DNA from: Alphaproteobacteria bacterium
GTDB lineage: Bacteria; Pseudomonadota; Alphaproteobacteria; CAAGCB01; CAG-977
Reading direction: 5' to 3'
Length of the DNA stretch: 35,889 bases
NCBI GenBank assembly: GCA_017480385.1
Contig: JAFVAT010000002.1
Coordinates: 1-35,889, forward strand
In this document: piece by piece, positions 264 through 23,107 of the stretch
Position numbering within the stretch: position 1 is the first letter of the stretch
How the letters are laid out: each line of letters begins with the position of its first letter
Notes under the pieces: generated by a model
Seen by the model: only the letters and a program-made list of their open reading frames with translations
What the model was told of the DNA's origin: nothing
Database searches by the model: none
Translations under genes and position numbers: made by a program

Positions 264-3200
264 TCAGAATGAATACCTGAAAGTCGCCATTAACGTATGC
301 GATAAATAATCAGGCCTCCATTCCAAATTATACCCGGCGGATAGATCGACGTGATCTCCATACAGCCAAGAAATAGAAGCCCCCAATTCGGCTCCGATCG
401 CTTTAAAGTCATCGCCGGTAACCGTATAAGTGCTTCCGTTCGGCAGGTTTACAACCGCGTCTTCGCTGGAAGCCGTCAGGTCGTAAGTAACGACCGCAGA
501 AAATTCGCTGTGCCAGGAAGATGTTTCCGTCTTTGACCAATCCTTATTCATGCGGGCCTCGGCAACCAAAGTCATGACATCAGTCGAAATCGCCCCGATA
601 TCCTGCCCTATTTCATCTTGGTGTGCTTTGCGCTTGGACGAAACATAACGCAGCCCGACCGCCGGCGTAAAAGAATGCATTTCTTTGCCGACCATTACGG
701 AAGCGCCGAAAGACGATCCGTCATATTCATCACCGATGGTCATACCGGAAATATTTTTGTTTTCTTTATAGCTCATAGAAGTCATGTTCAATACTGAACT
801 GACGAACCAATCCGACGGCTTGTACATGCCGTACACAAAGAATGAATTGCCGTCCACGTCGGTCGAACGCTGCAGCGTATCAACGCTTGAAGAAGTGGAA
901 GCATATCCAGCGCCTAAAGCGAAAACATCGAACAGCTGAACGTCTGCGCCGAACGCAAAGCCTGTCGTATCGCCGGAAAAGCCTTCCGGTTTGCTGGAGG
1001 ACAAATATTCTGAAGTGTTATAGAACGTTTGAGCCCATAAACCGAATTCCTTAGCGCTGGAATAATTAGTTTTCTTTTTAGCCCACCGTTTGCGTTCAGC
1101 CGTCGTTTCGATTTGTTCCTGAGAACCGGGTATGACACGGCGCTGGTAAGCCGGTTTGGCTCTGGTAACGGGCTGATCTTCCTGATCATAATACCCGGCG
1201 CGACGGTAATAATCCGAAGAACGCATAAAACGAGCTTTATACGGTGAACCGCCCGCGCGGCCATACATTTTTTGGATATCTTGGAACGTTCTGGACGCAT
1301 TGCCCAAATTGCCCAGCAATCTGTTCAAACGCCCTGACAAAGTGTTGGAAATTTTAGACTGCAAAGCAATCGGCTGACGGGACATCGCATTCGTGACATC
1401 CGGTGCCAAAGCCGTCAAAGCGTTCAAATAAGACCGCGAAGTCCCGTTTTGTGACAAAGCATCCAAATGTTCCGCAACCGTGAAAGCTTTTGTATCGAAA
1501 TCAAACAATTCGCCGTCCAAGAAAGCCGCCGCCGTATTGATTTGGTTCTGATTCCCAGCTTCTGATTCTGCATATTCACCGGCACTGAACACCTGTTTCA
1601 GCCGATAACGCAAACCGTCGCTTGTATCTCCTTCTTTTTTAAAGTCATAACGATTATTACTGAATATGAATTCACCATTTGTTGTTCCGTTAGAAATTTG
1701 AAATACAGTTCCTTCTTCCGTCGTACGTACGCCATAATCAATTTTCAAATCAAGCGCAACATCGTTTCGAATATCTAATTCTGCATTGTTTTTCAAAATG
1801 ATGCGACCATACCCTGTATCTTGAACAACACCGGCATCATCAACGGCGTTACGGGAAATGCGCATCGCAAACGTAGAAGAATTATCAAAGGTCAATCGAC
1901 CGGATTGAACGGTTAAAACATGCGTGTCAAGGCTGAGTGTCCCTCCGTTAATTGATCCGCCATTTGAGATTGTCGCGTCTTTTTCAAAGATAAGTTTCCC
2001 TTGAGCAACTTCGAAATTGCCGATTGTTACAGCACCGGCTCCTCTGCCACTGAATAAAACTTCACCAGTTTCACTAACCGTCAACGAGTTAATATTGGCA
2101 GTTTCACGGAAAGAAGCCAAACCGTTTTTAATCGAAACGACATTAATAGCAGAGTTTTGATTAAAATACGTTTTTGCCTCATTCAATTCTAAAGTATCAA
2201 AATTTGTTGTTGTATTGCCAAAAACTAATGTGCCCCTATCGGCTTTAATCGTTCCATAATATTCAGAGGCATAATTGAACCGCGCGCTAGCATCGCCCTG
2301 CAGATACAAAGTCCCTCCTGCGTTACCGTCTAATCGACCAGTCCCTGAAAATTCGGAAGTGACCGTTACCGTCACACCATTTTGGATATTAATCCTCCCA
2401 TCAGCCGAAGAATATTTCAACGTCCCAATAGTCGAATTGCCGACAAAGTCAATCATACCTTTTCCGACCGTAACGCTGGTCAATGCATTGCCGCCCGTCG
2501 AAAATTGAACAGTGTCATTGGTATCGCCTATTGCGACAAAAGAACCGGCCCCGTAAACGGCTCCGACGGCAGAGGGACCTGCTGTATACGTCTGAGCAAG
2601 TGTTTTAACGCTTAAAACGGCAGAGGGATTCGCCAAATTGATATATCCGCCATCTACAAAAGTCAAAGCATCGATGCTGATCGCGTTATACAACTCTGCC
2701 GCTCCGCCCGATATTTTCAATTTAGCTAAATTGCTCAACGGCGCCTTGAACGAGGAAACCAGCTGATTGCCTTCGCTGTCCGCTTTATATATCAGGTTCA
2801 GAGTTCCTTTGCCCGTAATGGCATTTGTCCCGTTCGTATTGATCTGGCCGACCGACAGAACATAACCTTCTTCAATATTCAGCGTCCCACCATTCGAAGA
2901 CAAGAATCCGATCGCTTTAATTCCTTGGTTTGTTTTGATATTGGCTTTTCCCTGTCCGATTTTGATCGTTCCGTCAAAGCCGGCATCGGACATAGCGAAG
3001 GTTCCCGTTGCCGTTCCGGTCAAATTAAGAATTCCGCCCCCCGCCAATGTATTGCCACCGTTAACCATAATGTCCGAAGAAACATTCAAAACAGTATATT
3101 CATTGCCAATTGTTAATGTTCCACCTGAACTACCGTCAAAGACCACTTTGGAAAGAGTCGTTGTCAGAACATTATCTGCAGAGCCATTGGCTAAAACCAA

Positions 3201-6200
3201 AGAGCTCCCTGTTGTTGTTCCGTCTATTGTCATCGTTCCGCCGATTGTATTGCCAGCCCCTGAAAGCGTGATTGTACTGCCTTCATTCGCCGTAACGTTT
3301 CCGGAAATAGCCGCATTGCCGTTAAAGGCCAGCTCCGTTGATTCTTCAGCCGTTACGTTTCCGGAAACAGATGTATTCCCCTTAAAGGTCAGCAACGCCG
3401 CTTTTTCAGCCGTAACGTCTCCAGAAATGACGGCATTGCCGTTAAAGGTCAGCTTGGTTGATTCTTCAGCCGTCACATTTCCTGTTAAAACGGCATCATG
3501 TATAATTGTGGCAATTGCCCTGTCAGTTACGGTCAAATTTTTCAGACTGCTCAAAGAGCTGTAAATATTAATACTGTCACTTTCTGCCAGATTCAACGTA
3601 CCGCTGCCGGTAACAACAGTTGTCGGAGAGGAGGTCTCTGAACTTGGTCCCAAATTGCTTCTGACGGTCAGCGTTTTGCCGTCAGCAATGTTCACAGTCG
3701 ATTTCTGCCCACCGTTTGAACCGGCCTTTAAAGTCAGCCCTGTTCCCGAACTGCCAACCTGCGTATCCGTATTGATATACGCCATAGCGCCGCCTTCAAC
3801 GGTCAGCATATTCAAATCTTGCAGACTGGAAGAAAAATACCCTTTTGCCGTCGTGCCCGACAAAATCAAAGCAGAATTAGCCGCAGTTCCCGTAATTTTC
3901 GTCTCTGCATAATCCGCCCGAATGGTATTTAGAACGGTAATTTTTCCTTTTAAATCAAGCGTCCCACTTTGATCAGAAAAAGAAATATTCCTAAAGCCGG
4001 ATCCGCCTTCGATATTCAGCGTCCCCCTGCCGGTGATCAGGTTAGCCAAATAATGACCGGAATCGGTTTCATAATCGTTTTTAATTGTGCCGCCACCTTG
4101 CAAATTAAGCGTGCCAGAGCCGTACACATACGGCGTCTTATCATTTCCGAATGCATTGGCGATTGTTAACATTCCCTTATTTACGATAACGGTCGCTTTT
4201 GAATTGCCTACCGTTATATCACTCGCATCTTTTTCCTGATACCCGAAATTAAATGTATCGATTTTGGATTCGCCGGTATAGCTGAAAGTCATTGTCCCAG
4301 CTTTGAAACTAGTACCGTGATACCCTCCGAAATTCAATGTATCTAACAATACCTGACCGGCGAAAGAGGATCCGTTCCCATCAACCAGGTTCAGCGTGCC
4401 GCCGGCGGTTTCGCCTTCGGTCCGCCCGCTGATAACATTGCTTGACAATGATTGAACCGAGCAGTTGTTTGTTCTGGTACAGGCGTACTCATCTGTATCT
4501 GTCGGATCATCAGTCAGTGTCAGAATTGCATTATCTGTCAAGACTAATGTTCCGCCCTCAGACGAAGTAAATTCCACACTGCCCAATTCCAGATTGCTGG
4601 TAATTGTTGCGGTTCCCGTTCCGATCTGCAATCCGCCCAAATATTTGATGACCTCGCCTGCGCCACCTGTGCCGCCAAAGTTAATATCAACCCCGTCCAA
4701 CAGACGCAAAATTCCCTGACCCGAAATGGAATTGCCTGTGCCGCTGAATTCTCCCGGATTTTGCTTCAACGCTAAAATTGCATTTTCACCGACTAAATTA
4801 ATTGTACCATTATTCAATTCCAAACGGTTTAACGTCAACATACCGTTTTTCAAATTGACGATACCATATTCCACCGTCATATTGCCGATAATATCATCAT
4901 ATCCCGTCTGACTGTTAAAATCCGCCGTTACTTCATTTCCGTCGCCGGCTGTGCCTCGAACAATGACCTTGCTACTGTCACCGTCCATTTTCATACGGCC
5001 TTGAAAGTCGGCTTTCCCTGTAATGATCAATGTTCCGGCCCCTTCAATGGTCCCCATTGCTTCCTGATCCCCTTTTGTTGCCAAATTCTCAACTGTCAGG
5101 GTTCCATTGACATCAACTGTAGATCCTTTAAAAGCCGTTAATTCTTTCACAAAAGCCGCCCCGTTTGAATCAATTGTAAATGTGCTGGCGTTAATAACAT
5201 TCCCGAAATCAACTGTATCAACATACAGCGCGCCACTTTGAACCGTTGCTGTACCCTGCGTCATTTTCAACGTTTTAAACGAAACACTGTGTGAATCAAA
5301 CAACGCCTCCGCGCCGTTTTCGACATTAACCGTCAGATGTTCGCTTGCAAACGCCAACAGATCGCCGTTTTCATCATAAACGTCTTTATCTGCAAAGGTC
5401 AGCGTCATGCCGTCTTTGATTGTCAACACCCCCGGCTGAACATCTTTGTCTCCCGAACTGACTATTTTCCCCTGAACAAAATCATAATAGGACCATGATT
5501 GCGTACCGCTGGTAATGATTTGGGACGTATTCCAGATCGTTGAAGATGCCGTCAGCGTTAACGGATGATCAGATCCCACCGGTTCAGAGTAAAAAATGAT
5601 TTTACCGTCATCAAAGTTTAATTCCTTAACAACCAGTTCGGCACCCAAGATCAAAGTGGAGTTCTTTAAATTAACCTGGTCAATAAGCGTACGCCCGGTA
5701 ATACGAATCACGCCCGGATCACCTACTCCGGATCCCGCTGTACCGTTTAAAACAGATAAAGAAGTTGTATCGGTTACATTGCCGGTTGCAAAAGTAACAG
5801 ACCCACGTCCCAAAGAAATAGTGCCAAACGAAATCAAAGATCCGAATTCCGCACTGGCCGTTTCAGACAACTTTAATTCACCGCTGCCGATCAGGCTGCC
5901 GCTTAATTTAATATTGTTTTCAATCGATAGGGTAGAGGAAATATTCAAAATTGAAGAAGCATTTTCCTGCATAAAGCCCTTAACCGTAACCGGAGCATCA
6001 ATGTTCAGCCTCCCATATTGCAGCAGGATATTTCCCTCATTCCATGTAAGAGCAGAACTGATTGTAAATGTTCCGAGATCTCTACTATCCGCAAAATACA
6101 ATGCCAGTGTTCCGCCGCCGTTGAAGCCATAGGTGGACGACTGAGCCTCAATCGAACCGGTTTTCCCCTGTAATGTTAATGTTCTGTCTTCCTCGATCGT

Positions 6201-7997
6201 AAAGCGACCGCCTATAATATTAATCGTGTTTTCCGGTGCTTCAATCGACAGATTGGCATTGGTTCCGGTATCTACGCCGTCGCCGTTTTGATTCTGACCG
6301 ATAAACCAGTTTCCGCCGGAAATATTAATGTTGCCGGAATTGGACGAATACATATAAATTGACGAATCTTTAGAAATATAAAAATTCCCGCCGGAAATAT
6401 TAATATTGCCCGCTGTATAAACATCATTTCTATTTGATCCGTCACACCCGCTTTCTGATATGGTGCATGTATAAAAGGTGCTGATAGGATTCCCCTTGCG
6501 GATCTTGATTGCACCATAGAAAATTCCGTTGCTGATCGCCAAATTGCTGCTGAATGCTTCAGAATAGTAAGATACTAGGTCATTCAAAGTGTTACCTTCA
6601 AAATCCTGATTTATTTTAAGCCCGGGATTAAAAGAACCTTTAGCCCCGATATAGCCGGAATAATCCCATAGAACTCCGCCGTTAAAATCAAAGACCGGCG
6701 TTCCGGAGCGGGCTTCAATGTTAAGTCCCGATGAATCGTAAGAATAGTATCCTGCCGAATAGGTATCAGCAGTAGAAGGTTCCAGATATGCCTCGCCCTG
6801 TATCGAAGCTGTAGGAATGCCCGTTGTTGTTACATCACTGCCTGCCGGACCAAGGATATAAAGTCTTCCGTCGGAAATTCCGCCTGTCGGGATCAGCGTC
6901 GTATCATTAACAAGCACAGTATCTCTGTTATTTACGTACAATTTCGCGCCGCTTTCCTTTGTAATCAAAGCGTTGTTGTCCAAAAACAGCGAATCTACAT
7001 AGGTTGTCCCGTTAACGTTCAATTGCCCCGCCACATGCAACGAGCTCAGGTAAACATTGCCGTTAAAAAAGGAGGCGTCTGATGTGCTTGTCAAATATAA
7101 CGATCCGACCTGATTTTCTGCGCTGTTGACATTCCTCAGCGTCGCCGATCCGGTTGTTACCGTTTTACCTGATGCGATATTTAATGTCCCGCTCGATGCA
7201 GTCAAAGTATTCAAATACACATTCCCATTCAAGCTGCTTGTGCCCGTTCCGGTTATGTTTAACGTTCCCCGCTGCGTGGAATTAATATCATACGCCGTTA
7301 TTGTGTTAACCTGTAAGGTAGAATTCTCCCCTTCGTTAAACGTAATCTTATTTCCAGACCCTGCCGTTAAAGTTCCAACGTTTGCTTGGTAATTGCTTAT
7401 ATGAAATGTTCCTTTATCAGCAGACGCAAAACGGACGTTCGTGATGTTTGTACCGGCATCAGTATAAGCAACCGACACGTCTTCAGAACCAACAACTAAA
7501 TTCGCCAATGTGTGGCCGCCGGTTGAATCTATATACCCTTCATCCTGATGTAATGTTCCCGTTCCGAAAACGACGGCTTTACCGGAAGCTATATTTCCAA
7601 CATATAAATGTCCGTTATTAACAATTAATGTCCCGTCATTCAGGACAATTTCATTTACAGAAGAAGTCCTTGAACCGGAAAATGTTAGAGACGGATTATA
7701 CTCCTCATCGTCATATATAGTACCCGTTATAGTATCTAAATACACGCTGCCGGCAAATGAGGCTGAGTCTTGCACTTCAAGCGTTCCCTGCTGTGTGGAA
7801 GAGGTGTTAATATTTACCGCGGAAAAAACGCCGGTCGCGGTTAAAGTGTCTGTAATTTCACATGTTCCCGTATTTGCTCCGTCAATACACGCCGCCGCCA
7901 AAGCCGGGTTTGCAGGCATCAGCCAAACGGTCGCCGTTAATGCCGTCGATATCATTAATCGGGTTTTATAGGAATGTATCTTTTTAATCAACTGCAT
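264..7997 (-). CDS. Giant autotransporter adhesin-like protein (type Va secretion)
   Basis: About 2577 residues. I chose the ATG at 7997, which has GAGGG just upstream and opens a normal signal peptide (basic MQLIKKIHSYK, hydrophobic core, cut near ALA-A at about residue 35); the longer frame to 8081 begins with TTG inside tlyA and adds a non-signal leader. The passenger is a long run of short beta-strand repeats rich in G, T, N and S with recurrent GTLNL/GSGTL-type turns, as in autotransporter beta-helices. Before the barrel comes the usual ALAPDV...RL helix-linker region. The last 262 residues (about 2316-2577, DNA 267-1052) alternate as beta-barrel strands and end in YSF, with the terminal Phe expected for Bam recognition. 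Three close Cys pairs occur in the passenger. Known role: the barrel inserts in the outer membrane and the passenger is exposed. Ligand unknown. Nothing resembling a passenger protease triad was evident. Confidence 0.9.
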   Translation of the reverse strand: MQLIKKIHSYKTRLMISTALTATVWLMPANPALAAACIDGANTGTCEITDTLTATGVFSAVNINTSSTQQGTLEVQDSASFAGSVYLDTITGTIYDDEEYNPSLTFSGSRTSSVNEIVLNDGTLIVNNGHLYVGNIASGKAVVFGTGTLHQDEGYIDSTGGHTLANLVVGSEDVSVAYTDAGTNITNVRFASADKGTFHISNYQANVGTLTAGSGNKITFNEGENSTLQVNTITAYDINSTQRGTLNITGTGTSSLNGNVYLNTLTASSGTLNIASGKTVTTGSATLRNVNSAENQVGSLYLTSTSDASFFNGNVYLSSLHVAGQLNVNGTTYVDSLFLDNNALITKESGAKLYVNNRDTVLVNDTTLIPTGGISDGRLYILGPAGSDVTTTGIPTASIQGEAYLEPSTADTYSAGYYSYDSSGLNIEARSGTPVFDFNGGVLWDYSGYIGAKGSFNPGLKINQDFEGNTLNDLVSYYSEAFSSNLAISNGIFYGAIKIRKGNPISTFYTCTISESGCDGSNRNDVYTAGNINISGGNFYISKDSSIYMYSSNSGNINISGGNWFIGQNQNGDGVDTGTNANLSIEAPENTINIIGGRFTIEEDRTLTLQGKTGSIEAQSSTYGFNGGGTLALYFADSRDLGTFTISSALTWNEGNILLQYGRLNIDAPVTVKGFMQENASSILNISSTLSIENNIKLSGSLIGSGELKLSETASAEFGSLISFGTISLGRGSVTFATGNVTDTTSLSVLNGTAGSGVGDPGVIRITGRTLIDQVNLKNSTLILGAELVVKELNFDDGKIIFYSEPVGSDHPLTLTASSTIWNTSQIITSGTQSWSYYDFVQGKIVSSGDKDVQPGVLTIKDGMTLTFADKDVYDENGDLLAFASEHLTVNVENGAEALFDSHSVSFKTLKMTQGTATVQSGALYVDTVDFGNVINASTFTIDSNGAAFVKELTAFKGSTVDVNGTLTVENLATKGDQEAMGTIEGAGTLIITGKADFQGRMKMDGDSSKVIVRGTAGDGNEVTADFNSQTGYDDIIGNMTVEYGIVNLKNGMLTLNRLELNNGTINLVGENAILALKQNPGEFSGTGNSISGQGILRLLDGVDINFGGTGGAGEVIKYLGGLQIGTGTATITSNLELGSVEFTSSEGGTLVLTDNAILTLTDDPTDTDEYACTRTNNCSVQSLSSNVISGRTEGETAGGTLNLVDGNGSSFAGQVLLDTLNFGGYHGTSFKAGTMTFSYTGESKIDTFNFGYQEKDASDITVGNSKATVIVNKGMLTIANAFGNDKTPYVYGSGTLNLQGGGTIKNDYETDSGHYLANLITGRGTLNIEGGSGFRNISFSDQSGTLDLKGKITVLNTIRADYAETKITGTAANSALILSGTTAKGYFSSSLQDLNMLTVEGGAMAYINTDTQVGSSGTGLTLKAGSNGGQKSTVNIADGKTLTVRSNLGPSSETSSPTTVVTGSGTLNLAESDSINIYSSLSSLKNLTVTDRAIATIIHDAVLTGNVTAEESTKLTFNGNAVISGDVTAEKAALLTFKGNTSVSGNVTAEESTELAFNGNAAISGNVTANEGSTITLSGAGNTIGGTMTIDGTTTGSSLVLANGSADNVLTTTLSKVVFDGSSGGTLTIGNEYTVLNVSSDIMVNGGNTLAGGGILNLTGTATGTFAMSDAGFDGTIKIGQGKANIKTNQGIKAIGFLSSNGGTLNIEEGYVLSVGQINTNGTNAITGKGTLNLIYKADSEGNQLVSSFKAPLSNLAKLKISGGAAELYNAISIDALTFVDGGYINLANPSAVLSVKTLAQTYTAGPSAVGAVYGAGSFVAIGDTNDTVQFSTGGNALTSVTVGKGMIDFVGNSTIGTLKYSSADGRINIQNGVTVTVTSEFSGTGRLDGNAGGTLYLQGDASARFNYASEYYGTIKADRGTLVFGNTTTNFDTLELNEAKTYFNQNSAINVVSIKNGLASFRETANINSLTVSETGEVLFSGRGAGAVTIGNFEVAQGKLIFEKDATISNGGSINGGTLSLDTHVLTVQSGRLTFDNSSTFAMRISRNAVDDAGVVQDTGYGRIILKNNAELDIRNDVALDLKIDYGVRTTEEGTVFQISNGTTNGEFIFSNNRYDFKKEGDTSDGLRYRLKQVFSAGEYAESEAGNQNQINTAAAFLDGELFDFDTKAFTVAEHLDALSQNGTSRSYLNALTALAPDVTNAMSRQPIALQSKISNTLSGRLNRLLGNLGNASRTFQDIQKMYGRAGGSPYKARFMRSSDYYRRAGYYDQEDQPVTRAKPAYQRRVIPGSQEQIETTAERKRWAKKKTNYSSAKEFGLWAQTFYNTSEYLSSSKPEGFSGDTTGFAFGADVQLFDVFALGAGYASTSSSVDTLQRSTDVDGNSFFVYGMYKPSDWFVSSVLNMTSMSYKENKNISGMTIGDEYDGSSFGASVMVGKEMHSFTPAVGLRYVSSKRKAHQDEIGQDIGAISTDVMTLVAEARMNKDWSKTETSSWHSEFSAVVTYDLTASSEDAVVNLPNGSTYTVTGDDFKAIGAELGASISWLYGDHVDLSAGYNLEWRPDYLSHTLMATFRYSF
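3301..3480 (-). repeat. Three tandem 60-bp repeats in the autotransporter passenger
   Basis: 3301-3360, 3361-3420 and 3421-3480 are three in-frame 60-bp copies, each encoding a 20-residue unit of the form (N/D)VTAE...L.F.GN...SG. The outer two copies are more like each other (NVTAEEST.L.FNGNA.ISG) than either is to the middle one. Flanking units at 3241-3300 and 3481-3540 keep only the edges of the pattern. Each unit would be about one beta-helix rung, so copy number changes lengthen or shorten the passenger without a frameshift. Confidence 0.85.
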
Positions 7998-8070
7998 GGT
8001 ACCCTCTATAGACGTATGCACCCTATAGCCTAAAAGAAATTGATTAAAAAAAACTTTCGCTTTAACTTTT

Positions 8071-8817
8071 TTAGCCGTCAAAAAACGCGGCTGAAATCAA
8101 AAATTCAATATTGCCTTCCGGTCCCTTAATCGGGCTGGGGGTCAGACTTTTCACCGTCCAGCCGGGCAAACCGTCTATCCATTCCCGGACATGCGCGCAC
8201 ACCGACGCATGCAGTTCGGGATCCCGAACAACCCCGTTTTCACCGACCTGATGACGTTCGACTTCGAATTGCGGCTTGATCAGCGCGATTAAAAAAGCGC
8301 CCGTTTTCTTCGCAAAACTCATCGGTTTGGGCAAAACGTTTTCCAAACGGATAAAGCTGGCGTCACACACAATCAAATCTATTTCCTCCGGAATATGTTC
8401 CGGCGTCAAATACCGCGCGTTCATGCGTTCCAAAACAACAACCCGGTCATCAGTCCTTAATTTCTGCGCCAGCTGACCGTATCCCACGTCTACAGCATAT
8501 ACCCTTTTGGCTCCCTGCGTCAACAAAACGTCCGTAAAACCGCCCGTCGAACACCCGACGTCAAGGCAAACCAGCCCCGTCGGGTCTATGCCCGAATCGT
8601 CCAATCCCTTAACCAGTTTCAATCCTCCGCGCGACACCCACGGAAACGCTTTGCTCTTCACGGTTAAAACCGAATCGGATTTCAACACTTCTCCCGCTTT
8701 ATCAATGCGTTTTGTCCCGCACAAAACGACGCCGGACATGATCAGCGCCTGCGCTTTCGCCGCGTTTTCCGCCAATCCCTGCTCCACCAGCAGCAAATCC
8801 GCGCGTTGTTTTTTCAT
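8071..8817 (-). CDS. tlyA: TlyA-family rRNA 2'-O-methyltransferase (S4 domain plus FtsJ-like domain)
   Basis: 248 residues. The N-terminus (about 1-65) is an S4 RNA-binding domain (RADLLLVEQGLA...); it is followed by SRGGLKL and a Rossmann methyltransferase with the AdoMet loop DVGCSTGGFTD at about residue 85 and DLIVCDASFI further on, typical of TlyA/FtsJ proteins. Known members methylate ribose 2'-OH of 16S and/or 23S rRNA; some are also reported as haemolysins, a role I do not infer here. It is the last gene of the xseB-ispA-dxs-tlyA block, starting four bases after the dxs stop, an order frequent in Alphaproteobacteria. The usual Ala in DVGASTGG is Cys here. Confidence 0.9.
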   Translation of the reverse strand: MKKQRADLLLVEQGLAENAAKAQALIMSGVVLCGTKRIDKAGEVLKSDSVLTVKSKAFPWVSRGGLKLVKGLDDSGIDPTGLVCLDVGCSTGGFTDVLLTQGAKRVYAVDVGYGQLAQKLRTDDRVVVLERMNARYLTPEHIPEEIDLIVCDASFIRLENVLPKPMSFAKKTGAFLIALIKPQFEVERHQVGENGVVRDPELHASVCAHVREWIDGLPGWTVKSLTPSPIKGPEGNIEFLISAAFFDG

Positions 8818-20286: not shown

Positions 20287-20910
20287 TTAAGCTTCAGCAG
20301 CTGCAGCTTTTTTAGACGGTCGACCGCGCCGCTTGACCGGAGCCGGCGCCTCGCCTTCCGGTAAATTTTCCGCTTTCTTTGTCACCGGGCGACCGCGCCG
20401 CGCCTTCATTTCATTTTCAACTATTGCGGAAACGGGAACCGACAAATCCATTTTCATCACTTCAGACAGGTCCGGCTCTTTTTCTTCTTTCGGTTCCGCT
20501 GTAAAAGCCACAACAACGGGTTCATTTTCCACAAATGGCGGCAACACCGGCTGATTTGCTTCCGCTGCCATCGGCTGATCCTGTGTTTCCGACGTATTGC
20601 TGTTTTCGGTTTCCGACTGACTTTGAGAAGAGAACCGAGCCCCTTCCGCCGCAATCGCCAAAGCGTTGATGCGCATATAATGATCCGCATGCTGCAAACA
20701 ATTTTCAGCCGCCACCCGATCCGAAGACATTAATTCCTTTGCCGCGGATAAATATTTTTCCATCAGCTGAAAAGCCGTCCCGCGCAGTCTACCCGCCGGA
20801 CCGATGCTGTCATAAACCGTATTGCGGTTGGGTCCATTGTTAAACCGGCGGTTATTGTTAAAGCTGTTATGGTTGCGTCCGCGTGAACGACCCCTCGGAT
20901 TCATGCCCAT
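20287..20910 (-). CDS. DUF4167 protein with C-terminal AT-hook-like motifs
   Basis: 207 residues. The N-terminal part (about 1-95), rich in R and N and including NTVYDSIGPAGRLRGTA, then a helical block with AAENCLQHADHYMRI, is the DUF4167 domain typical of Alphaproteobacteria. A low-complexity acidic middle follows. The C-terminus has two RRGRP cores embedded in basic sequence, like AT-hooks, so minor-groove DNA binding, or RNA binding, is plausible. Function is unknown; it regularly follows prfA and prmC, which invites a link to translation or the ribosome. The start could be either of two nearby Met codons (MGM...); the annotated one is the longer. Confidence 0.85.
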   Translation of the reverse strand: MGMNPRGRSRGRNHNSFNNNRRFNNGPNRNTVYDSIGPAGRLRGTAFQLMEKYLSAAKELMSSDRVAAENCLQHADHYMRINALAIAAEGARFSSQSQSETENSNTSETQDQPMAAEANQPVLPPFVENEPVVVAFTAEPKEEKEPDLSEVMKMDLSVPVSAIVENEMKARRGRPVTKKAENLPEGEAPAPVKRRGRPSKKAAAAEA

Positions 20911-21033: not shown

Positions 21034-21894
21034 TCATTGCGCGCAAAAAACGGACAAACAGCGCACAATTCCGCCCAAATCTACGCCGAAAGAGCCGAAT
21101 CGCAGGCCGACGGAGCAAATAAGCCGGCAAACATCTTCCTCCTGCCCTTTGCCGAATTCAGTTATAAAGGCGCCGCCTTTCTTCAGCAGGCGGGGCAAAG
21201 CCGGCGCGATCCTGCGATAAGCGTCCAATCCGTCATCACCGGCGAATAAAGCTTGCGGCGGATCAAACTCAATGACTTCCGGAGCAAGAGCCGTTCGTTC
21301 CGTTTCCGCAATATACGGCGGATTAGCAACAACCAAATCGAACTGCCCCAATTTTTTTTCCCAATCCGGCGCATTCCAATCGGCCTGAACCGTTGTGAAA
21401 CGGTCTTTTAATCCGTTCGAAGCCGCATTTTCCGCAGCAACGGCCAAAGCTTCAGCCGAGCAGTCCAGCCCGATCGCCCTTGCATTAACGTATTCACAAA
21501 GCAGCGCTTGCGCCAAACAGCCGGATCCGGTCCCCAAATCCAATATTTTTAAAGATGCAACCTTATCTCTGAATATTTTTAAAGCCTCTTCTATCAGCGT
21601 TTCGGAATCGGGACGCGGATCAAGGACATCTTGCGTCACTTTAAAATCCAGCCGCCAAAAGCCGCGTGTCTGCGTAATTTTGGAAACAGGTTCGCGTTTG
21701 AGACGCCTTTCAGCATATGAGTTTATCGTTTTCAACTGATCGGGTTCCACTTCAAAATCCGGATTCATGCGCAGGAAAACCGGCGTTTTGCTGATTCCAA
21801 AAGCAGTCAGAGCTCTTGCGTCCGCTCTGGCTTCGTCCAGTCCCGCCCGTTCGAAACGTTCCGTCAACTCAGCAAGAAGTTCTTTAACAAGCAT
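21034..21894 (-). CDS. prmC: Peptide chain release factor N5-glutamine methyltransferase
   Basis: 286 residues, normal for PrmC/HemK. It methylates the Gln of the GGQ motif of release factors, using AdoMet. There is an N-terminal helical domain (about 1-75), the AdoMet loop DLGTGSGCLA (119-128) and the catalytic NPPY (191-194), which holds the substrate glutamine. DPRPDSETL upstream of the methyltransferase core is also diagnostic. An AAGGA site lies just upstream of the start. Its substrate gene prfA is the next gene upstream, but the two are separated by an unusual inverted-repeat element at 21911-22029. The reading frame is intact. Confidence 0.95.
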   Translation of the reverse strand: MLVKELLAELTERFERAGLDEARADARALTAFGISKTPVFLRMNPDFEVEPDQLKTINSYAERRLKREPVSKITQTRGFWRLDFKVTQDVLDPRPDSETLIEEALKIFRDKVASLKILDLGTGSGCLAQALLCEYVNARAIGLDCSAEALAVAAENAASNGLKDRFTTVQADWNAPDWEKKLGQFDLVVANPPYIAETERTALAPEVIEFDPPQALFAGDDGLDAYRRIAPALPRLLKKGGAFITEFGKGQEEDVCRLICSVGLRFGSFGVDLGGIVRCLSVFCAQ

Positions 21895-21910
21895 AAGTCC
21901 TTTTTCCTCA

Positions 21911-22029
21911 GATCAATTTTAGGGCGGCAGATGAAGGAAGAACCGGAGCGCAAAAGCGTAAGCGTACACACAGGTACGTGCGCATTCGAGCACCGGAAGC
22001 GACCGTACAGCTGCCCCATAAAATTGATC
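21911..22029. repeat. Long inverted-repeat element filling the prfA-prmC gap; candidate structured RNA or palindromic repeat
   Basis: The 11-bp arms GATCAATTTTA (21911-21921) and TAAAATTGATC (22019-22029) are perfect complements, and the pairing continues with GGGCGGCAG against CTGCCCC through small bulges, giving a stem of about 20 bp. Inside are smaller hairpins, including CGTAC/GTACG (21963-21967 with 21974-21978), GTGC/GCAC (21978-21993) and CGC/GCG (21949-21958). The element begins one base after the prfA stop codon and ends before the prmC ribosome site. On the minus strand it also holds a 51-codon open frame (22019 to 21864, beginning MGQLYGRFRC) preceded by AAGGA and overlapping the prmC start. 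I saw no second copy in this window. Confidence 0.6.
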
Positions 22030-22030
22030 C

Positions 22031-23107
22031 TTACTCCAGCTCTGAAAGGCGGGACAGCTGATCTTCCGTAATCAGCGATTCAATAATTTCATCTAAAGCC
22101 GTACCGTTCATGACTTCGTCTATTTTATATAAAGTCAGATTGATACGGTGATCGGTCACGCGCCCCTGCGGGAAATTATAGGTACGGATACGTTCGGAAC
22201 GGTCACCGGAACCAACTTGATTCTTGCGGTCAATAGCACGCTCTTTATTCAACTGTTCCTGCTGCATGTCATAAATGCGGGAACGCAGAATGCGCATTGC
22301 GCGATCTTTGTTTTTAAACTGAGACCGTTCGTCCTGACAAGCAACGACAAAGCCCGTCGGAATATGCGTGATGCGCACGGCGGATTCCGTTTTGTTGACG
22401 TGTTGGCCGCCGGCGCCAGAAGCACGATAAACATCTATTTTTAAATCTTTTTCATCGATTTTCAGATCGACTTCTTCAGCTTCGGGCAAAACGGCAACCG
22501 TTGCCGCCGACGTATGTACACGGCCCGAAGATTCCGTTTCCGGCACACGCTGAACACGATGCACGCCAGATTCAAATTTCAGACGTTCAAACACGTTGCG
22601 TCCCGTAATACTGGCAGAAGCTTCCTTATACCCGCCGATGCCGGTATCGTTAACGGACAGCATTTCGAATTTCCACCCCTGCGTTGCGGCATAATGCTCG
22701 TACATACGAAACAGTTCCGCGGCAAACAGAGCTGCCTCTTCTCCGCCCGTGCCGGCGCGGACTTCCAAAATCGCATTCTTTTCATCAACAGCATTTTTCG
22801 GCAGCAGCAAAATCTTTAACTGTTTTTCCAGTTCGGGCAGCTTTTCCTTAGCCTCATAAATTTCATCATGAGCCATTGAGCGCATTTCATCGTCCGTTTC
22901 CGGATCATCCAACAAGGCCTGCGCCCCGTCCATATCCGCCAAAACTTTCTTATACGCCTGAATCGCGGCAACAATTTCCTTTAATCCGGCCAGTTCTTTG
23001 GAAAGCTTAACAAACGTATCCCCGTCAACGCTATCCCCCGATCCCAGCAAAGCTTCCAGCTCTTCATGGCGGGAAAGAACAACGTCCAGCTTTTCTTCAA
23101 AACTCAT
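22031..23107 (-). CDS. prfA: Peptide chain release factor 1
   Basis: 358 residues. RF1 reads UAA and UAG and triggers peptide release. The stop-codon-reading tripeptide is PET (189-191) in [14 protein letters not shown], the RF1-type PxT rather than the SPF of RF2; the catalytic GGQ is at 233-235 in [10 protein letters not shown]. The N-terminal helical domain (about 1-105) is complete. It begins one base after hisS ends, so it is cotranscribed with ispG and hisS. Its own stop is followed immediately by the inverted-repeat element before prmC. Confidence 0.97.

Follow-up and report, generated by a model that had tools for sequence, protein, structure and literature searches.

A hairpin between prfA and prmC in an alphaproteobacterial genome is most likely a copy of a dispersed mobile palindromic repeat

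Bru-RS1 and Bru-RS2 of Brucella (Halling and Bricker, 1994) are palindromic intergenic repeats of about 103–106 bp that are present in dozens of copies (PMC2266754, PMC3163539, PMC10800456, PMC2267715). The GTAG- and CGTC-tagged REPs are units of 20–40 bp with a terminal GTAG or CGTC, and the CGTC-tagged class includes RPE-4 and RPE-6; REPs are extragenic palindromes located mostly close behind open reading frames, some of them in tandem or as dimers (PMC3733652). The Rickettsia palindromic elements (RPE) are small palindromic repeats of intracellular alphaproteobacteria, some of which lie in frame in genes, and MITEs are non-coding, dispersed elements with terminal inverted repeats. Integron attC sites are imperfect palindromes that stand directly behind a stop codon in a fixed orientation, with variable paired stems and conserved unpaired bases.

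The palindrome described here lies on the minus strand of the window, the whole stretch of 35,889 nucleotides that was analysed. It covers 119 bp at 21911–22029, and direct reading showed that prfA and prmC are encoded on the strand that carries GCTCG..CACGTAC..GTACGCT. Its outer arms, GATCAATTTTA (21911–21921) and TAAAATTGATC (22019–22029), form a perfect 11-bp inverted repeat. The gene for peptide chain release factor 1, prfA (22031–23107, minus strand), ends with a stop codon at 22031–22033, TTA on the plus strand, one base from the element, and the gene for the release-factor glutamine methyltransferase, prmC (21034–21894, minus strand), begins with an ATG at 21894–21892. Both identities are firm, with scores of 517 bits for NCBIfam TIGR00019 and 244 bits for TIGR03534, above the cut-offs. 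The minus-strand order of the gap is TAA-G-GATCAATTTTA...TAAAATTGATC-TGAGGAAAAAGGACTT-ATG, and the likely ribosome-binding site of prmC, GAGGAAAAAGGA (21898–21909, minus strand), lies directly downstream of the element. The sequence-only reading had given the same coordinates and perfect 11-bp ends, had placed the element between one base past the prfA stop and the prmC ribosome site, and had remarked on the outstanding 136-base gap, all of which the direct reading bears out: the gap is 136 bp, and the neighbouring genes upstream abut or overlap.

The hairpin is real and far beyond chance. Its RNA fold gave a z of −6.3 on the plus strand and −5.3 on the minus strand and its DNA fold −5.7 and −4.6 respectively, with 0 of 200 shuffles as good in each case. 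The best fold on either strand was a single long hairpin of 11, 2, 5 and 2 bp followed by an interrupted apical stem. Of the nested inverted repeat proposed earlier, the hairpin and its perfect 11-bp ends were recovered, and the three inner hairpins were missing from the best fold of either strand. A scan of both strands detected no terminator-like T-run or intrinsic terminator at the element. The apical core (21939–21997, minus strand) matched the covariance model R1 with an E of 3.1e-11, and contains the conserved apex GCGCACGTAC-CTGTGT-GTACGCTTACGC (21956–21983, minus strand), recognised from alignments and a descriptor scan, the family form of which is GCTCACGTAC-n-GTACGCTsCGC.

When the element was compared with the described systems, Bru-RS emerged, as judged from its description, as the likeliest described member of the repeat family. 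This kinship is likely because one Ochrobactrum genome, from a close relative of Brucella, has 66 matches to the apex model, Bru-RS itself having been compared by description only; the outer arms of the window element are, however, unrelated to those of the Ochrobactrum copies, the nearest stand-in. The element resembles MITEs in being non-coding and dispersed and in having terminal inverted repeats, here the perfect 11-bp ends, and it has relatives in Holosporales with both terminal inverted repeats and 3-bp target duplications. No target-site duplication was recognised by eye around the window copy. A difference from MITEs is that the internal stems vary between copies and stay complementary. 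The likeness to RPEs extends to a copy of the repeat in frame within a gene, although the window copy itself is intergenic. The likeness to integron attC sites is one of analogy only, comprising the oriented position next to a stop, the variable but paired stems and the unpaired bases, and no attC R and L boxes were recognised by eye. The element shares with REPs an extragenic position close behind an open reading frame and the occurrence of tandem units, but at 119 bp, with the ends GATCAATTTTA and TAAAATTGATC and another apex, it has no GTAG or CGTC tag. Identity with the CGTC-tagged REPs or with RPE-4 and RPE-6 was dropped as the tagged repeats differ in size, ends and apex (PMC3733652).

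In the genome of the window (G000) the covariance model R1 of the apex found four copies at three sites: the window; C1:47871, where the copy is flanked by fliF and a flagellar rod/hook FlgEFG-type gene; and C29, with a tandem pair behind an Alpha-E-domain gene. BLASTN with the window element returned the query copy only in this genome and would have misled if used alone, since the covariance model found three more; in related genomes BLASTN did find copies. One genome of the same genus (G003) has about 2.3 tandem units in the prfA-prmC gap and a pair elsewhere, and a genome of the sister genus (G011) has one unit in the gap. Two tandem units occur near the flagellar fliF in G005, the own prfA-prmC gap of which is essentially empty and reads TAAGAATG. 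G010 has four tandem units, and tandem arrays are present in G000, G003, G005 and G010. Among genomes of the same genus or family the gap thus either holds the element (G003, G011) or does not, being empty in G002, G007 and G009 as well as G005, and without the element in G001. The fliF-side copy is also present in G005 and G006. These results from the whole-genome and relative searches that had been proposed support the earlier option of a palindromic repeat inserted at a neutral site, since both this genome and its relatives have copies at unrelated sites and the gap of several close relatives lacks the element. Downstream of prmC the window encodes a DUF4167 protein (20287–20910, minus strand), and in G003 and G011, too, prmC is followed by the gene of a similar protein. 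In G006, another species (L013), the prfA-prmC gap contains a different palindrome (GTCATCGCGAG...CTCGCAAAGACGA) that resembles a CGTC-type REP dimer.

The copies at the prfA-prmC site of G003 and G011 differ from the window copy in their arms. The outer arm is GATTGATTTTA and the partner arm is altered to match, giving two adjacent arm pairs that are changed on both sides between the orthologous gaps. The prfA stop codon of G003 (TGA) lies within the element arm, indicating that the insertion reaches into the end of the gene. Copies also occur within genes. One, a distantly related copy (G035, L006), is in frame within alaS, in an open frame of 880 codons, and two from G003 lie inside a permuted alphaproteobacterial tmRNA (L009, 1255–1817), antisense to it and in the intervening segment between the acceptor and coding pieces.

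In a Holosporales MAG the apex repeat forms the body of a MITE of 141–144 bp with the ends GGACCTCTTTC and GAAAGAGGTCC (TIR GGACCTCTTTC). Identical 3-bp flanks (ATT, AAT, ACT, ATA) were present at 15 of the 16 copies measured, as should be expected of a transposed MITE. Automatic arm extension was too permissive for the detection of target duplications, and element ends are not reliably placed in most lineages. Spans of at least 400 bp between TIRs, as for a full-length partner IS, were absent from 176 kb of Holosporales loci. Two Y1 (IS200-type) transposase loci examined from the window's own genome had no convincing sequence in common with the window element. A Y1 (IS200-type) transposase fragment is located at 12–80 of the window (minus strand), at the contig end, and PF01797 had 18 matches in this genome, many of them at contig ends, which suggests that an IS200-like element probably broke the assembly. 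A further open frame of the window, of 2605 codons at 264–8081 (minus strand), has no Pfam match.

The window element is very probably a copy of a dispersed, non-autonomous mobile palindromic repeat of REP/RPE/Bru-RS/MITE-like character that is parked behind prfA, with no prmC-specific control implied. The repeat is dispersed, is present or absent at the prfA-prmC site among close species, forms tandem expansions and, in one lineage, is a MITE flanked by target duplications. A host transposase would act in trans on the folded element or on its terminal repeats, and pairing of the hairpin would be kept through its recognition as DNA by the mobilising enzyme. The copy behind prfA may have survived because insertion just past a stop codon would do little harm. 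We infer these steps, and the cause of the prevalence of one orientation is to be counted among them. Likely side effects are the separation of formerly near-overlapping prfA and prmC frames and the presence of a stable hairpin in the shared mRNA.

The position of the repeats relative to genes was measured in 132 distinct elements. In the sense orientation, 65 elements had the stop codon of an open reading frame of at least 150 codons 30–100 nt ahead of the apex; in the antisense orientation, 16 did. When stops in one orientation exclusively were counted, with the range widened to 125 nt for Holosporales, there were 54 sense-only and 4 antisense-only elements (p 3e-12). The open reading frames were called mechanically and the loci were selected by pattern, which does not obviously create an orientation. 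The trend was alike in rhizobia, Listeria, Holosporales and the remainder. In the sense orientation the distance from stop to apex was mostly 40–70 nt, the genes upstream were mutually unrelated, and the window copy obeys the same rule. This bias exceeds what should be expected of a purely neutral palindrome and leaves room for a possible effect in the transcript, including the earlier option of an mRNA stabiliser.

An RNA element of the 3'-UTR, in which a hairpin after the stop ends or protects the transcript of the upstream gene, here prfA, would account for this sense bias and for the preferred distance, as well as for the extensive covariation and the conserved unpaired motifs close to the apex. 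Among 14 copies from Listeria, both partners are altered at 26 of the 42 pairs and 96.4% of cells are paired, far above shuffled and slid controls, the structure being taken from the same alignment and the sequences being related. The stems differ among copies yet remain complementary. At pairs with at least two Watson-Crick types in five groups, however, there were 29 G-T cells and 27 A-C cells against 784 Watson-Crick cells, small counts from computed alignments. G-U should be preferred over A-C if a structure is kept as RNA, and as G-T is no commoner than A-C the pairing seems to be kept at the level of DNA; the comparison leans toward this reading and falls short of proof. The 3'-UTR explanation is also at odds with the lack of a U-tract terminator at the window element, with the fliF-side copies of the own genus, which run antisense to their flanking genes, with the presence and absence of the element among close species and with the copies inside alaS and tmRNA, and we consider it unlikely.

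A cis-acting RNA switch specific to prmC, set between RF1 and its methyltransferase, is far less probable still. The location suggests it, as do the shared element and compensatory arm changes of G003 and G011 and the presence, between prfA and prmC of a distant alphaproteobacterium (G021), of a family member whose apex is divergent. Conservation at the prfA-prmC site across the family, with no copies elsewhere, is nevertheless contradicted by the five relatives whose gap has no element and by the many copies behind unrelated genes, and the window element had no Rfam match at gathering scores or even at an E of 10. The earlier option of a regulatory RNA controlling prmC is therefore not supported: the prfA-prmC gap does not conserve the element, and many unrelated genes are followed by this hairpin. 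As the family is scattered, usually just behind the stops of unrelated genes, the window hairpin is most likely the relic of a mobile element and not a prmC switch. A chance inverted repeat, to which the single BLASTN match in the own genome might point, has a negligible probability given a fold z of about −5 to −6, homologous copies in other genomes and four covariance-model matches in the own genome.

The repeat belongs to a wider family whose apex, GCTCA-stem-loop-stem-CTSCGC, is found again in Alpha-, Gamma- and Deltaproteobacteria as well as in Listeria and Paenibacillus. Among the matches listed, the apex pattern occurs in Holosporales, Rickettsiales, rhizobia, Asticcacaulis, Pseudomonas, Vibrio, Thiomicrospira, Listeria, Paenibacillus and others. 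R1 matches at an E of 0.001 were obtained in 58 of 299 sampled Pseudomonadota genomes (19%) and, the Listeria centre aside, in 5 of 198 sampled Bacillota, counts that are partial because the training sequences of the model had been selected by their GTAC apex. Copy numbers per genome reach at least 150 in the 0.9-Mb Holosporales MAG, 140 in Paenibacillus camelliae, 88 in Listeria newyorkensis and 66 in Ochrobactrum. In a descriptor scan of 1.28 Mb the flanks GCTCA and CTSCGC were fixed, the apical stem enclosed by them varied (CGTAC, TGTAC, CATAC, TTGAC, CGTGC, TTGGC), and five shuffled passes gave no match; the share of CGTAC is inflated since most of the loci scanned had been retrieved with the GTAC pattern. 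The idea that the apex is coding was given up, since its loop differs in length between copies and this shifts the frame. A rhizobial copy matched 26 plasmids, in none of which it is annotated as a repeat; no match was obtained when plasmids were searched with the window element or phages with a Listeria copy.

Other loci of the family matched only tmRNA in Rfam, and the family as a whole is covered neither by any Rfam family nor by the open-licence literature searched. A text search for the repeat by sequence gave only computational 'miRNA' predictions from Thalassospira, which contain the apex (TTCGGTGCTCACGTACTTTTAG) (PMC6413936). No description of the cross-phylum apex with its orientation bias was found in the open-licence literature, and a fuller account may exist elsewhere. 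A single folded-DNA module, consisting of the GCTCA-stem-loop-stem-CTSCGC apex with copy-specific paired stems, shared across phyla, carried by MITEs with unrelated terminal repeats and placed in one orientation behind stops, might tentatively represent an undescribed class of hairpin mobilisation site, similar to attC or REP in its working and to neither in identity, or else a 3'-end element that is propagated as DNA and exerts its effect in the mRNA; we regard this as possible but doubtful. The single window element is ordinary, and its possible importance lies in the family that it opens. If real, the family would join scattered repeat families, probably including Bru-RS, into one class, and would open to testing whether folded single-stranded DNA is the form in which such palindromes spread, and why gene ends are where they settle.

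Two further arrangements of the repeat were observed. A copy behind a marC-family gene in G011 (L184, 1430–1640) has the outer arms AAAAACCGCTTATGG...CCATAAGCGGTTTTTT, an arrangement resembling an intrinsic terminator whose loop contains the element. In some gamma-type genomes (L229, L240, L241, L247) the apex lies between ends resembling IS terminal repeats, such as GAGGCTGTTTGGTGATT and GGGCGTGTTGACATTC, which are unlike the Holosporales ends.
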